Under the pieces are notes generated by a model. It worked only from the letters and a program-made list of their open reading frames with translations, was not told the origin of the DNA and did not search any database. A stretch of 50,483 bases of DNA from Chloroflexota bacterium. Lineage in GTDB: Bacteria > Chloroflexota > Anaerolineae > Anaerolineales > VGOW01. This document shows positions 5,993 through 32,053 of the stretch, piece by piece; position 1 is the stretch's first letter, and each line of letters starts with the position of its first letter. The position numbers and the translations under genes were made by a program. The stretch spans positions 1-50,483 of the forward strand of contig VGOW01000023.1 of NCBI GenBank assembly GCA_016875735.1, written 5' to 3'.

Positions 5993-7408
<1,416 letters not shown>

Positions 7409-7465
7409 TGGGACTCTCCTGTGAGTTTTGTTTTTATTTTGGCGTCGGTTGCGGCGCGAGCGGCA

Positions 7466-9211
7466 TTATAGCACGCGCGATCGCTGACGATGGGTGAGCC
7501 GCTTGCTTTGCTTGTAGGGGAAGATGTCGATGACTTCACCCGCGCGATGGCGCTGTTGAAGTTTGATCCAGAAGTCCACGCCGAGCAGATCGCCGTGAGT
7601 CTCGGTGAACAGCGCGCGCAGGTCGCCGGGAAAGCCGAGAAAGGTGAGAATCTCTTCGGGGAAGATGTCGTTGGGGCCGACGTAAAACCACGGCTCGCCG
7701 TCGAACTCTTCTTCGGCGGTGCTGGCGCGCGGCATCTCGCGGAAGTTGCAATCGGTGACGAGGCACAGTTCATCGTAATCGTAAAAGACCACGCGCCCGT
7801 GCCGGGTGACGCCGAAGTTTTTGAGCAGAAGGTCGCCGGGAAAGACGTTGGTGGCGGCGAGGTCTTTGATGGCCTGCCCATAATCCACCACCGCATCGTG
7901 GGCGGCCACTGGGTCAGCGGCGCGGATATACAAGTTGAGCGGGGTGAGACGCCGTTCGGTGTAGAGGTGTTTGATCGTCACCCGATCGCCATTCACCGAT
8001 ACACTGCCGGGCGCCGTCTCCAATAACTCGGCCAGCAGTTCCGCCGAGAATCGTTTTTTGTCGAACTGCAAATGCTCGAACCCCTGCGCGTCCACCAACC
8101 GCCCGGCGCGGTCATGATTGAATACCAACTGATACTTTTCCATCACCTCCCGCCGCGTCGTCGTCTTGGGATAAGCAAACTTGTCTCTGATGATCTTGAA
8201 GACAATATCGTACGAGGGCAGGGTGAACACGGTCATCACCATGCCCCGATCGCCCGGCGCGAGCTCGAACAGATCGTCAGAGTGATCGAGATGGCGCATG
8301 AGATCGCGGTACAGTTCGGTTTTGCCGTGCTTGTGTTCGCCGATGGAAATGTACAACTCGGCCACCCGTTTGTTGGGCATGATCGATTTGAGGAACTCGA
8401 TCAGTTCGTGCGGATGTTTGGCTTCGACGTGAAAGTACGAGCGGGTGAAACTGAAGACGATGCTGGCTTCATTCTGAGTCAACAGCGCCGCATCCACCAC
8501 GATGCCCTGCCCGTTGTTGAGCAGTGGCAGCACGAGAGGGATGCAGTGCCCCTCGCGGCAGATGCGGCCAATGAGGTACGCGCCTTTGTTGCGATAGAAC
8601 ACCGGCTTCAGCATTTCCACCCGGTCGGTTTTGTGCGCGCCCCACTCCCATTCGGGGGGCAAAGCGCGATCCACATCCTCGGCGGCCAGCGCCGCATCCC
8701 GATCCACATTTTGATACGGAATCTTGAAGCGGTAACTGAGGAGTATTCTTTTGATCAGGTCTTTGGTGCTGTTGTGGCAGGCGAAGCGGCGATAGATGAG
8801 CGCCCTCTGCCGTGCGGGTGGAGGAGAGAGCTCGGCGGCCACGTATTCAATGCGCGCATCAATCCCAACGGTGACGAGGATGCGGCGGGTGACCGAATTA
8901 AAAAAGGTCTTCGCCAGCATCGCATCCCCCCGCTCGGCGGCGAGCGATGAGTAGCGCCCTTTCATCGCCGACCACAGGGCTTTGTTCTTCGCTTTGTTTT
9001 TCAGCGCCGCCTGCAAGTGGGCAACAACTTGATCGACGACTTTGGCTCGCGCCTCCAATCGCTCGCGCATGTCGCGCTGAACGCCCTGCCAGTCTTGGCT
9101 CTCGAAGCGCGATTGGGCCCGCCGGGTGATCGCCGCAAACTTCCGCCGATACTCGTCGAAACCGTCGTAAATGATCTTCGAGCCGCGCTGCGCCAAAGGC
9201 CAACGACGCAT
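7466..9211 (-). CDS. aceK: Isocitrate dehydrogenase kinase/phosphatase
   Basis: 581 residues, the usual AceK length. The bifunctional enzyme phosphorylates Icd to turn it off and send isocitrate to the glyoxylate bypass, or dephosphorylates it. The family core is clear: YDIVFKIIRDKFAYPK in the N-lobe, then KDLAATNVFPGDLLLKNFG and VTRHGRVVFYDYDELC. The Asp in FPGD (around 458) and the metal-site Asp in YDYDE (around 475) match the catalytic positions described for E. coli. The start codon directly abuts the aminotransferase stop (TAG 9212-9214, ATG 9209-9211), so translation is probably coupled. AceK is best known from Proteobacteria; no isocitrate lyase or malate synthase lies in this window. 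Confidence 0.95.
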   Translation of the reverse strand: MRRWPLAQRGSKIIYDGFDEYRRKFAAITRRAQSRFESQDWQGVQRDMRERLEARAKVVDQVVAHLQAALKNKAKNKALWSAMKGRYSSLAAERGDAMLAKTFFNSVTRRILVTVGIDARIEYVAAELSPPPARQRALIYRRFACHNSTKDLIKRILLSYRFKIPYQNVDRDAALAAEDVDRALPPEWEWGAHKTDRVEMLKPVFYRNKGAYLIGRICREGHCIPLVLPLLNNGQGIVVDAALLTQNEASIVFSFTRSYFHVEAKHPHELIEFLKSIMPNKRVAELYISIGEHKHGKTELYRDLMRHLDHSDDLFELAPGDRGMVMTVFTLPSYDIVFKIIRDKFAYPKTTTRREVMEKYQLVFNHDRAGRLVDAQGFEHLQFDKKRFSAELLAELLETAPGSVSVNGDRVTIKHLYTERRLTPLNLYIRAADPVAAHDAVVDYGQAIKDLAATNVFPGDLLLKNFGVTRHGRVVFYDYDELCLVTDCNFREMPRASTAEEEFDGEPWFYVGPNDIFPEEILTFLGFPGDLRALFTETHGDLLGVDFWIKLQQRHRAGEVIDIFPYKQSKRLTHRQRSRVL

Positions 9212-11727: not shown

Positions 11728-12855
11728 CTATTTTTCCTCCCCGGCCGCCAAATCCACGCCGGTATCCAACGCGCCGGACGATAACTGCGCGACGACATCG
11801 CTCATCAATTGAATGACCGCCGGGCTGACGTCGGGGCCAAAGTTTTCGGCCAGCGAGAGGTTGCCGTTGGCGAGGGCGAAGGCGGCGTGAGGCGGAGACT
11901 CGCCGTTGAGGATCAAGCCAATGAGTCCGGGCAGGGAAAGATCGGGGCGGCGGAGAATGCTTCCCAGCGCGCGATCGGTTGCCGCCGTGAGATCGCGGCC
12001 CGACCAGATCACCCACATGCCCAGCGCGGCGGCGGCTTCCAACCCGGAGTCTCCGGCGGGGCCCGAGGCGGCGAACATCACGTCCACCCGCGCCCTCTGC
12101 AATCGAGCCGCCGATTCCGTTCCGGCAACGGTATCGTTCGGATCGGTGAGCGTGACTACCCATAGTTCGCAGTCGCCGCAGGTGTATCGGACGCCATGCC
12201 GGAATCCGTTTTCGTACAATTTGCTTTCGCGCTCGCCGCCGACGACCGCGATGCCCACTTCGCGCTCGGTCGTCACCAGTCCGGCCAACGCTCCGGCGAG
12301 GAAGGCTTCTTCATCGAGGCGATCCCCCGGCTCGCCCAGAGTGAAATAGTTGGCGAGCGAATCGTCGGCAGGCTGATCCACTCCGACGAATTTGATGGCC
12401 GGGTAATTTTGAGCGGCGGCGCGGGCCGCATCGGCCAATTCGCTTCCGGCGACGATGATGATGATCGCGCCGCGTTCAGCGGTCATGCCGATGGCGGCGG
12501 CAGGATCGGCGGAGTCGAGCGCATCGATGTCCACAACGTCGAGCTGCGCCAAATGCGCCGCCGCCGCGATGTGCGCGCCTTCGAGGCTGAGGGCGGCGAT
12601 GGAACCGGCGGGCGCGGAGGCAATGTGGCCGACGAAGCCGATGAGAGTCGGCGCGGGGGTGGGCGATGGCTCAAGGGTGGGCGCAGAGGCCGGGAGCGGT
12701 TCGACGGTGGGGACGACGGGAGCGAGTGCGGGAGTGGATTCGCCGAGTCCGGGCGAGGGGGTGGCGCAGGCAGTGAGCGCAACCGCGAGCAATAATAGAA
12801 CCGCCGCTGTGCGCGGCGGAATAATGACGAATGGCATAGGTGTATTGTAACTCAC
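11728..12855 (-). CDS. BMP-family substrate-binding lipoprotein
   Basis: 375 residues. A signal peptide ends in a lipobox (VALTAC, Cys30), followed by a Thr/Pro-rich spacer and a periplasmic-binding domain of the Bmp/PnrA type: FLAGALAGLVTTEREVGIAVVGG, then VMFAASGPAGDSGLEAAAALG. These usually bind nucleosides or serve as sensors. No ABC permease or ATPase genes accompany it, so it may be a sensor or a partner of a distant transporter. The GTG start at 12855 overlaps the upstream stop (GTGA); ATG at 12837 is an alternative that also leaves a full signal peptide. Confidence 0.85.
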   Translation of the reverse strand: MSYNTPMPFVIIPPRTAAVLLLLAVALTACATPSPGLGESTPALAPVVPTVEPLPASAPTLEPSPTPAPTLIGFVGHIASAPAGSIAALSLEGAHIAAAAHLAQLDVVDIDALDSADPAAAIGMTAERGAIIIIVAGSELADAARAAAQNYPAIKFVGVDQPADDSLANYFTLGEPGDRLDEEAFLAGALAGLVTTEREVGIAVVGGERESKLYENGFRHGVRYTCGDCELWVVTLTDPNDTVAGTESAARLQRARVDVMFAASGPAGDSGLEAAAALGMWVIWSGRDLTAATDRALGSILRRPDLSLPGLIGLILNGESPPHAAFALANGNLSLAENFGPDVSPAVIQLMSDVVAQLSSGALDTGVDLAAGEEK

Positions 12856-14813
12856 GGCAGCGCAAACTTGTGCACCTTCGCCGCGTTGCGATCCATGTAA
12901 AACAGTTCGCCCTGATCGGAGATCGCCAAATCGAAGCCGTAGCCCTCGATGGGCAGAATGGCGAGCGGGTTGCCGTCGGCGTCGAACACCTCAACGCCGT
13001 CGAAGTCGTTGACGTAGAGATTGCCCTGCCCGTCCACCGCCACCGCCGAGGGGCCGTTCAATCTGCCGGGGCCGTCGCCTTCGCCCCCGATCAGATCGAG
13101 CAGTTTGCCTTCGGGCGAGAGTCTGATGATCACGTCGAGCGAAGCGGCGGCCAAATAGAGATTGCCATCGCTGTCCATTGCCACACCCTCAACGCCCGCA
13201 TCCTCCATCGGGATGGACGCCGACATCGTGAGATTGCCCTCGCGGTCGAACACGGCCACCGTGTCGGCGCCCGCCGCCGCGAGGTCGCCGAAGGGCGAGA
13301 CGGCCACATCTTCGAAATCCGACTCGCCGAATGACAATCCGCCCAACGCCTCGCCGGTCGCGCCTTCGAACCGATAAATCTCGCCGCCGTACACCACGAA
13401 CAATGTGCCCTCGCGGTTGGCGGCCATACCGGAGATGTACACGTTCTCGCCTTCGATCTTCCATTGATTGACGAACTCGCCCGTCGAATCGAAAACTTGA
13501 ATGCGCCCGCCACTGTAATCGGCGGTGTAAACGTTGCCGTCGCCATCCACCGCGATGGCCCGCGTGTCGTCGAAGAAGCCGGGCCCGCTCCCCTCCCCTT
13601 TGCCGAACGAGAGGGCGAGTGGCGCGAATTCGGGCGTGGGAGTGGGCCCGAGGATGAGCGTGGGCAGTGGCGCAACGGTGGCGATCAAATCCGGGATCGA
13701 CACCTCCTCACTGCCCGACTCGTCGCGGCCAAACAGAATCATCGAAAGGCTCTGCCCCGACTCTCCCGGAATGCTGGCGTTGTAAAAATATGCGCCCACT
13801 GCCACCACAAACAGCACGCCCAGCAATGGCACACACCCGGCGATTCCGAATCGGCTGAGCGAGGCGAGGCCGAAGGCCACGCCGATGCCTGCCAGCCACG
13901 TTCCGCCGAACATCACCGCGAACACCAACAACGGGTGCGGGATGATCACTTGCCCCTCGTTGTCTACGCACCGGAGCAGAGTCCCGCCGTCCACTTCGGT
14001 GCTGCTGGCCGCGTCGTAGTAGTTGGACACGCGCCCGCCGTAGGCGTCGGTGTAACCGTCGGGGCAAACCACTGGCGCGGCGAACCGCACCAGCCCGGTG
14101 AAGCCGAACTCGCTCACCATAGCCACGATGAAGGCCACCCAAAAGAATCCGAACGATGCGCCGATCCATGTGCCGAGAAATGAGCCGCGCCGCTTTCGGT
14201 TGCTGACGGTGGCGGTGGTGGTGACGGTAGAGGTTGTCGCAGGGCGCATGAGCGCATCGGCGATGCCGCTCCCCTGCACGAACACCAACGGCCCTCCGGC
14301 CTCGAACGCCTCAACGGCGTCTTTGGCTTCTTTCAGTCCTGCGCCGGTCTTCTCACGGTAAAGTTTGATGGCTTCGATTTTGTTGCCCAACTGCACCAGC
14401 CGCGAGATTTCGGCGCGGGCAAACGCCTCGTTGCTCACCGACGCCGAAGAACGGGGCGGAGCGCCCGCGCCGCCGGGCATGACCACCGCCTGCCCTCCTT
14501 CCATTCTCTCCACTGCGCCTTTGGCTTCGGTCAGACTCACGTCGAACGTCTCGCGATAGATTCGGATAGCTTCGATTTTGTTGCCGGAGCGAATCAATCG
14601 CGCGATCTCTTTGAGTTTGATCGCCTGCGAGAGGAGCGAATCCATGCCCACCACTGGAAGCGACGGGGCGTGAGGCGCAGTTGCCTGCGGGGCGCTCCGC
14701 AGAGAGTCGGGCACGATGACTGAACTGTTGCAGTACGGGCAACGCACGGTCACGTCGTCGCCGTCGTAATCGAGCGGGGCGCTGCAATTGGGGCAAGTGA
14801 AGGATTGAGTCAT
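12852..14813 (-). CDS. Zinc-ribbon / bL12-C-terminal-like repeats / membrane / NHL-propeller protein
   Basis: 653 residues with an unusual domain order. Residues 7-28 form a zinc ribbon (CPNC...CPYC). Two repeats at about 66-105 and 133-173 match the ribosomal bL12 C-terminal fold (second: KIEAIKLYREKTGAGLKEAK). A linker follows, then transmembrane segments at about 213-235, 296-318 and 324-344, enclosing a Cys-containing loop. A Pro-rich spacer leads to an NHL-type beta-propeller (about 400-653) with repeats such as AVDGDGNVYTADYSGGRIQVF. By topology the ribbon and L12-like part face one side of the membrane and the propeller probably the outside. Function unknown. First gene of the minus-strand block, with 4-base overlap into the BMP lipoprotein. 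Confidence 0.88.
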   Translation of the reverse strand: MTQSFTCPNCSAPLDYDGDDVTVRCPYCNSSVIVPDSLRSAPQATAPHAPSLPVVGMDSLLSQAIKLKEIARLIRSGNKIEAIRIYRETFDVSLTEAKGAVERMEGGQAVVMPGGAGAPPRSSASVSNEAFARAEISRLVQLGNKIEAIKLYREKTGAGLKEAKDAVEAFEAGGPLVFVQGSGIADALMRPATTSTVTTTATVSNRKRRGSFLGTWIGASFGFFWVAFIVAMVSEFGFTGLVRFAAPVVCPDGYTDAYGGRVSNYYDAASSTEVDGGTLLRCVDNEGQVIIPHPLLVFAVMFGGTWLAGIGVAFGLASLSRFGIAGCVPLLGVLFVVAVGAYFYNASIPGESGQSLSMILFGRDESGSEEVSIPDLIATVAPLPTLILGPTPTPEFAPLALSFGKGEGSGPGFFDDTRAIAVDGDGNVYTADYSGGRIQVFDSTGEFVNQWKIEGENVYISGMAANREGTLFVVYGGEIYRFEGATGEALGGLSFGESDFEDVAVSPFGDLAAAGADTVAVFDREGNLTMSASIPMEDAGVEGVAMDSDGNLYLAAASLDVIIRLSPEGKLLDLIGGEGDGPGRLNGPSAVAVDGQGNLYVNDFDGVEVFDADGNPLAILPIEGYGFDLAISDQGELFYMDRNAAKVHKFALP

Positions 14814-14905: not shown

Positions 14906-15256
14906 ATGGCTGACTCGGGCAAACGTTGGACAGTTCAAGATCGAGATGGGAACTCGATTTACCTGACCGAAGAGCGTTGGCGGCACATCACGGATGCCGA
15001 GAACCATCCCGAAATAGCGGAGTATGAGGGCCATTTGCAAAAGACTCTCCAAAAAGGACGGCGACGGCAGGAACCGCTCAATCCGCGCAAATACCGTTAT
15101 TCGCATCCCTTCGATGACTTGCCGGACGACTTCAATCATGTTGTGGCGATTGCGTTGTTTGGTTTCGATGTCAACGAACAGGGTGAGACCGCCCCGAACA
15201 ACTTTGTCGCCACAGCGTTTCTCAAGCACATGCGCCTCAAAGGTGGCAGCGAATGA
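14906..15256 (+). CDS. Small conserved protein, possible toxin-like partner of DUF2283 protein
   Basis: 116 residues: a short beta-rich start (WTVQDRDGNSIYLTEERW), a HIT...HPEIAEYEGHLQKTL helix, then a strand-rich C-half. Proteins of this shape commonly sit before a DUF2283 gene, and some are compared with barnase/RelE-like nucleases, but I see no proven catalytic residues. A TATAAT box at 14875-14880 precedes it. The stop overlaps the start of the next gene by four bases (ATGA), showing translational coupling. Confidence 0.7.
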   Translation: MADSGKRWTVQDRDGNSIYLTEERWRHITDAENHPEIAEYEGHLQKTLQKGRRRQEPLNPRKYRYSHPFDDLPDDFNHVVAIALFGFDVNEQGETAPNNFVATAFLKHMRLKGGSE

Positions 15257-15630
15257 TACAGAAGCCAACATACTCCTACGATAAAGAAGCCGATGTTCTA
15301 TACATTTCCTTCTCGCCCGGCGAGAAGCCGACAGCGGCTGTTGAGTTGAATGAGAATATCCTGTTGCGTTTCAACCGCGCCGAGAAACGCGCTATTGGCC
15401 TCACGCTGATGGATTTTTCTGCGCTGGTGCAACTCGCCGAGTTTGGGCCGCGCAATTTCCCTCTGACCGGCTTGAAAGACCTCGAACCGGAATGGCAAGA
15501 GATTGTGATCGAGATTATTACCGCGCCGCCTGTGAATCAGATATTGAAAGTTTCCAGTTACATGCCTTCACCCGCAGAGACGGTGCCGATCACGTTGGTC
15601 GAGAAGCCGCCGATACCTGTGGCGGTGTAG
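15253..15630 (+). CDS. DUF2283 domain protein
   Basis: 125 residues. The N-terminal half has the DUF2283 signature (YDKEADVLYISFSPGE... followed by ENILLRFN). The C-half is an extension of unknown role. DUF2283 proteins often form two-gene modules with small putative nucleases and may act as the antitoxin. The ATGA overlap with the preceding gene fits such a module. Direct evidence of toxicity is lacking. Confidence 0.8.
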   Translation: MIQKPTYSYDKEADVLYISFSPGEKPTAAVELNENILLRFNRAEKRAIGLTLMDFSALVQLAEFGPRNFPLTGLKDLEPEWQEIVIEIITAPPVNQILKVSSYMPSPAETVPITLVEKPPIPVAV

Positions 15631-31459: not shown

Positions 31460-32053
31460 ATGGCTGTCTCTGCTGCTGAAGTCAAGAAACTGCGCGAAGC
31501 CACCGGCGCGGCGATGCTCGACTGCAAGAACGCGCTCGAGCAGCACAACGGTGACATGGAAAAAGCGACCGAATGGCTCAAGGAAAAGGGGCTGGCGAAA
31601 GCGGCCAAGAAGGCGGAGCGCACCGCGAAGGAAGGCCGGGTGGAGGTGTACATTCATCCCGGCAATCGCGTGGCGGTGATGGTGGAAGTGAATTGCGAAA
31701 CGGACTTCGTCGCCAAGACGGAAGCCTTTCAAGAGTTCGCGCACAATGTAGCCCTGCATATCGCGATGTCCGCGCCGAAGTATGTCGATGTGACCGACAT
31801 CCCTGCCGCCGACATCGAAGCGGCCAAAGCGCAAATGCGCGAGGAGGCCGCCGCCGAGGGCAAACCGGCGCAGGCCATCGAAAAAATCGTTGAAGGCAAG
31901 CTGGAAAAATACTGCGCCGAAACCTGCCTGTTGCGCCAACCGTTCATCAAAGACGAGGAGAAGACCATTGGCGCGATGCTCAAAGAGGCCATCGTCGCCA
32001 TCGGCGAGAACATTGTCGTCCGCAGGTTCGCCCGTTACCAATTGGGTGAGTGA
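31460..32053 (+). CDS. tsf: Elongation factor Ts (short form)
   Basis: 197 residues, the short form with one core subdomain as in Thermus. The N-terminal UBA-like part has KKLREATGAAMLDCKNAL. The EF-Tu contact motif VNCETDFVAKTEAF holds the TDFV signature. The C-terminus KTIGAMLKEAIVAIGENIVVRRF is typical. It exchanges GDP on EF-Tu. Translationally linked to rpsB. Confidence 0.97.
   Translation: MAVSAAEVKKLREATGAAMLDCKNALEQHNGDMEKATEWLKEKGLAKAAKKAERTAKEGRVEVYIHPGNRVAVMVEVNCETDFVAKTEAFQEFAHNVALHIAMSAPKYVDVTDIPAADIEAAKAQMREEAAAEGKPAQAIEKIVEGKLEKYCAETCLLRQPFIKDEEKTIGAMLKEAIVAIGENIVVRRFARYQLGE

Follow-up and report, generated by a model that had tools for sequence, protein, structure and literature searches.

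The locus raises the question of what a single bacterial protein might do with a zinc ribbon, L12-like repeats, membrane helices and an NHL propeller. The window, i.e., the whole stretch of DNA that was analysed (50,483 nucleotides), corresponds to contig C23 of a Chloroflexota genome (4.15 Mb in 150 contigs).

Modular Organisation of the Protein

The ORF starts with ATG, contains no internal stop and encodes an intact protein of 653 aa. The following features were assigned to the gene and to the gene adjoining it, all on the reverse strand:

12852..14813 (-), whole gene, 653 aa: zinc ribbon, two alpha-hairpin repeats, three transmembrane (TM) helices and NHL propeller
14706..14807 (-), zinc ribbon, aa 3-36, Cys 7/10/25/28: invariant Cys, four short strands in the model
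14496..14645 (-), repeat 1, aa 57-106: helices 57-75, 79-90 and 94-105, the last two forming the L12/EF-Ts-type hairpin
14298..14438 (-), repeat 2, aa 126-172: helices 126-141, 145-156 and 160-171
14082..14177 (-), membrane helix 1, aa 213-244: AlphaFold2 model, preceded by RKRR
13938..14081 (-), loop with two Cys, aa 245-292: predicted outside from TM number and the positive-inside rule
13857..13937 (-), membrane helix 2, aa 293-319: AlphaFold2 model
13773..13832 (-), membrane helix 3, aa 328-347: AlphaFold2 model
13626..13772 (-), flexible linker, partly Pro/Thr-rich, aa 348-396: low pLDDT from 347 to 391
12855..13625 (-), six-bladed NHL propeller, aa 397-653: AlphaFold2 model and structure matches
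11728..12855 (-), gene for a Bmp/PnrA-like substrate-binding protein: its start overlaps the stop of the 653-aa gene (GTGA)

The original prediction had listed a ribbon, two repeats, membrane helices and a C-terminal propeller, and this list was borne out by the ORF, Pfam, the alignment and AlphaFold2. Ribosomal_L12, NHL and SGL each scored above their own Pfam cut-off, and the NCBIfam matches (NHL protein (ScyF) and L12) were both sub-threshold. The AlphaFold2 model, built on an alignment of eight sequences (the protein and seven relatives), had high confidence for the propeller and the repeats, and low confidence for the linkers and the membrane region.

The two CxxC knuckles of the ribbon (CPNC and CPYC) are present, with Cys 7, 10, 25 and 28 invariant in 8/8 aligned sequences and a small beta ribbon modelled at residues 3-33, and the ribbon is predicted to bind zinc. 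The propeller model (397-653) showed a six-bladed fold like that of solved NHL domains, which were its best solved matches (TRIM3, Z 36.1, rmsd 2.1, 256 residues), and several of these carry bound RNA in the structure. The PknD extracellular domain was matched with a Z of 28.9.

The same genome holds a second gene of the family (G000:C9, about 68545-69389; L036, L144), with the ribbon and the propeller in different frames and the hairpins and TM missing, and this locus is either a pseudogene or an assembly fault. Another ribbon-hairpin protein, without propeller, is encoded at G000:C121 2779-3159 (L035).

Membrane Topology

Where the window protein has three hydrophobic regions, each of its seven aligned relatives has one, so the three-TM segment is peculiar to the former. 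No homologue of this segment, including the loop 245-292, was found among 40 relatives from 40 other genomes. Of 67 single-TM hairpin proteins, 48 have more Lys and Arg on the side of the hairpin and 9 have fewer, a difference whose p value is inflated because the sequences are related. These counts suggest that the hairpins lie on the cytosolic side. The order of TM followed by a C-terminal NHL propeller is present in the model, and its placement outside is predicted from TM count and charges only. The membrane-spanning layout that had been proposed, with the propeller outside, thus stands as a prediction.

Relationship of the Repeats to bL12 and EF-Ts

Each repeat is about 47 residues long, and their 35-residue cores (70-104 and 136-170) are identical at 20/35 positions by manual count; a profile of the module recovered them with E values of 1e-17 and 4e-21, respectively. 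The Pfam Ribosomal_L12 match reached 40 bits (curated cut-off 25.9) in two stretches, but the repeats cover only about positions 10-37 of the 67 of the profile (PF00542) and not the whole domain; the better of the two stretches spans 11-36. Among the PF00542 matches in 61 genomes, 59 span positions 1-66 or 1-67 and are ribosomal proteins, whereas ten further copies, including the window protein, span only 9-41; the repeat is therefore a fragment that corresponds to helices 4 and 5 of L12.

The bL12 C-terminal domain (CTD) is an alpha/beta domain. AlphaFold2 predicted each repeat as three helices without strands (pLDDT about 95), and a second prediction, made for residues 56-178 with 31 sequences, gave the same two three-helix units, again with a pLDDT of about 95 and no strands. 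Neither prediction showed the three-strand alpha/beta fold of the bL12 CTD for residues 56-178, and the added N-terminal helix appears in the model where the CTD has its first strand. In a profile comparison, the hairpin gave a probability of 97.7 with bL12 (28 aligned columns) and of 86.4 with EF-Ts (24 columns), the latter link being only moderate because the aligned stretch is short. This similarity to both places the repeat with the ancient L12/EF-Ts alpha-hairpin fragment; the hairpin has been called 'EF-Tu-binding' (PMC4739770).

Identity with the whole bL12 CTD was rejected, given the partial profile coverage and the predicted all-helical fold. The repeats had been described as bL12-CTD-like, a description that has to be narrowed: the predicted fold of the region is not that of the CTD, only the helix 4-helix 5 hairpin is common to both, and the name L12/EF-Ts alpha-hairpin suits the predicted repeats better. 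Foldseek returned nothing significant for the two-unit model (best E 2.5), and bL12 and EF-Ts were absent among its matches. With VIA-align, the best Z was about 6 over 45 residues, in a range common for helical bundles, against chains of the eukaryotic large ribosomal subunit. That bL12 and EF-Ts are missing from these matches is no evidence against kinship. The 60S chains share 15-27% identity with the three-helix unit of the 56-178 model over those 45 residues; the chain is probably eL36, judging by its name, and the match may be due to chance.

Conservation of the L12 Factor-Binding Residues

Equivalents of K65, I69, R73 and K84 of E. coli L12 occur in both repeats, and K70 is matched by Lys in the second repeat and by Arg in the first. 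Repeat 2 retains K65, I69, K70, R73, L80, K81, E82, A83 and K84. At the level of sequence, the repeats thus appear to contain the factor-binding residues of L12 helices 4 and 5. Across 145 distinct copies, the equivalents of K65, I66, I69, K70, R73, L80, A83 and K84 are 74-96% conserved, part of which reflects selection, since the genome scan sought KEAKDAVE; position 66 is V in E. coli L12 and I in the Chloroflexota proteins. In the 30 copies that were not picked by this motif, conservation was 83% for R73, 73% for K84, 73% for I69, 67% for K70 and 67% for K65, with A68 at 90% and A83 at 93%. V68, V72 and L86 of bL12 are replaced by A, Y and A in the hairpin copies, and positions 71 and 75 are variable. 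The changed positions (68, 72, 86 and others) are those that we take to face the L12 sheet.

Mutation of K65 or K70 in L12 weakens its binding to EF-Tu about 2-4-fold, the published Kd of L7/L12 for EF-Tu being about 0.7 uM (PMC10602876). RF3 contacts L12 via helices 4 and 5 (PMC3677378). Among candidate partners of the hairpins, the conservation of the factor-binding residues points most specifically to a translational GTPase; this candidate is unproven, since five relatives of the same layout are without the L12 signature.

Relatives and Exchange of the Inner Part

About ten relatives have the full architecture with a recognisable hairpin. A ribbon, at least one such hairpin, a TM and the NHL propeller were found, besides the window protein, in L007, L012, L055, L056, L057, L061 (the same gene as L009), all from Anaerolineae and other Chloroflexota, and in L058, L062 and L063, which, like L065, where the full architecture is split over two frames, come from Acidobacteriota or unplaced MAGs. 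Five proteins (L008, L010, L135, L137 and L138) have the same layout with a degenerate helical repeat that retains the small residues (equivalents of A68, G and A83) and has lost the charged face, and L006 has the same layout and no recognisable hairpin. A profile search of 301 genomes of the phylum (E 1e-25) gave matches in 10, of which 5 were ribbon-to-propeller proteins and 4 kinases with propeller. The full architecture is therefore patchy.

Hairpin copies were recorded in Chloroflexota, Acidobacteriota, Planctomycetota, Myxococcota, Actinomycetota, Pseudomonadota, Verrucomicrobiota and Cyanobacteriota, the phyla being those of the record titles. The hairpin ORFs contain one to three repeats, with one TM in 67 and none in 32 and a zinc ribbon in some, and the hairpin occurs alone, with N-terminal helices or with PQQ-type propellers, which follow a ribbon-hairpin-TM part in L059, L060 and L064 (Pfam run on L059). 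In a Polyangiaceae MAG, an ORF of 1161 aa (L124, 629-4114, forward strand) carries a single hairpin at its end. The combination had been called unusual, which holds for the full ribbon-hairpin-TM-NHL architecture, patchy and without a published description in our searches of open-access papers, but not for hairpins in membrane proteins, which are common across phyla.

Four proteins of kinase-TM-propeller type, L139-L142, carry the same propeller subfamily, with profile E values between 1e-64 and 1e-71; of these, L140 was run against Pfam, which confirmed Pkinase. L011 combines kinase, TM, TPR and propeller, and L045 kinase, zinc ribbon, TM and propeller. L011, a kinase, and the zinc-ribbon protein L006 are sister branches of the propeller tree (support 97/94), which supports a probable exchange of the inner part. 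The tree suggests that kinases were exchanged several times independently and that the signature was lost more than once; AU tests are compatible with single origins, rejecting neither that of the kinase propellers (p 0.128) nor that of the degenerate hairpins (p 0.113). In the window protein, no Pkinase was present among the best 25 of 27 Pfam families, and its 653 residues belong to other parts, leaving it without the Hanks-type kinase domain of a PknD-type receptor.

Neighbouring Genes

An operon system with the Bmp-like gene was considered, given the overlap of the two genes in this genome, yet no shared neighbour was apparent beside the genes of the relatives, as judged by eye from N-terminal sequence and length. 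As the genes beside the relatives differ, the Bmp/PnrA-like gene is probably outside the system. An anti-phage role was rejected, PADLOC having given no match. Divergent from the 653-aa gene, two small overlapping ORFs (14906-15630, forward strand), the first without Pfam match and the second a DUF2283 protein, could form a two-gene toxin-antitoxin-like unit. Further along the window, an isocitrate dehydrogenase gene lies beside that of AceK (isocitrate dehydrogenase kinase/phosphatase; both AceK Pfam domains full length) at 5993-9211 (reverse strand) in this Chloroflexota genome, and EF-Ts, the other protein known for a related hairpin, is encoded at 31538-32050 (forward strand).

Possible Function

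Binding modules in place of the kinase, in an otherwise known receptor layout, point to a sensor or adaptor. Starting from the parts of the protein, their predicted folds, the relatives of the same layout and the propeller held in common with Ser/Thr kinases, we infer its orientation, sensing and docking as follows. The protein would be a membrane-spanning sensor or adaptor of PknD topology with a cytosolic docking module in place of the kinase, a reading that we consider about evenly balanced between right and wrong. Outside, the propeller on its flexible linker would bind a ligand; it would be joined by three membrane helices, where most relatives have a single one, to the cytosolic ribbon and the two tandem three-helix units, each of which would display the alpha-hairpin with which bL12 and EF-Ts grip EF-Tu. 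The cytosolic part would act as a docking platform and not as an enzyme. The idea of an outer sensor linked to an inner docking part, put forward in the original prediction, is supported by the layout of PknD-like receptors, and a link of the repeats to translation factors is plausible from the conserved residues.

Docking of EF-Tu or a different translational GTPase is a speculative and rather unlikely step; the conserved face argues for such a partner, the degenerate relatives against a universal role. In the specific form of the sensor/adaptor explanation, the hairpins would bind such a GTPase, most likely EF-Tu, and tether it at the membrane, where an outside signal would alter local factor activity or EF-Tu would report the growth state. 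The alignment of the hairpin profile to both bL12 and EF-Ts and the retention of the K65, I66, I69, K70, R73 and K84 equivalents in most copies across phyla, with 68, 71, 72, 75 and 86 changed, are consistent with such a tether, but the five same-layout relatives without the signature speak against it, as does the fact that the lone hairpins are without the beta-sheet that holds helices 4-5 of L12, and we rate it as rather unlikely. The relatives with degenerate hairpins, together with L006, which has none, indicate that the layout does not require factor binding, and the conserved hairpin residues may serve the fold.

The three-helix units could accordingly be generic spacers or oligomerisation helices, with L12-like residues kept for folding, in a surface scaffold of which the propeller is the active part. 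The degenerate hairpins, which keep their small residues and lose the charged face, and the many partners of the hairpin (none, PQQ-type propellers or N-terminal helices) fit this proposal, but the charged residues K70, R73 and K84 are more conserved across phyla than a spacer needs, and it seems to us somewhat unlikely. It is very unlikely that the propeller is a surface enzyme (SMP-30/gluconolactonase or Vgb-type lyase) and the remainder its anchor: the Pfam SGL match lies above its cut-off, but its best stretch is short (54 residues), and among solved structures NHL domains, several with bound RNA, match best.

Under the sensor/adaptor reading with a translation factor as partner, several phyla would hold EF-Tu or a relative at the membrane, here with an outward-facing end. 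In its broadest form, which we regard as unlikely, this proposal gives the ancient EF-Tu-binding alpha-hairpin a role well outside bL12 and EF-Ts: tethered to the membrane, it would be widely used to dock translational GTPases, and its coupling here to an extracellular propeller would form a direct physical link between surface sensing and translation factors. Even without factor binding, there would be a family of PknD-like receptors with a docking part in place of the kinase, and the L12/EF-Ts hairpin persists as an independent repeat, mostly membrane-anchored, in many bacterial phyla.

Comparison with Known Systems

The architecture is a variant of the PknD-like plan, which is itself known; the variant was found without description in the open-access literature. 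Like PknD-type Ser/Thr kinases, the window protein has an inside module, a TM region, a flexible linker and a six-bladed NHL propeller, extracellular in those kinases and predicted to be outside here, and its propeller subfamily also occurs on Chloroflexota kinases; it differs from them in having a ribbon and alpha-hairpin repeats instead of a kinase, and three TMs instead of one. With the bL12 CTD (PF00542), the repeats have in common the helix 4-helix 5 hairpin, including the lysines that bind EF-Tu, but they have neither the strands nor the third helix of the CTD, and they carry an extra N-terminal helix, stand in tandem and are membrane-anchored. The N-terminal domain of EF-Ts (UBA-like), i.e., the alpha-hairpin of Wieden 2001 and Alva 2015, has the same hairpin with all-helical support and a TGAG(L/M) turn, the extra helix coming before the hairpin in the window protein. 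In EF-Ts, this helix comes after the hairpin. Finally, the same repeat and a membrane anchor occur in small membrane proteins (DUF6793/PF20593-like and PRK06771-like) that have one to three hairpins, some of them with a ribbon, and that differ from the window protein in lacking a propeller.
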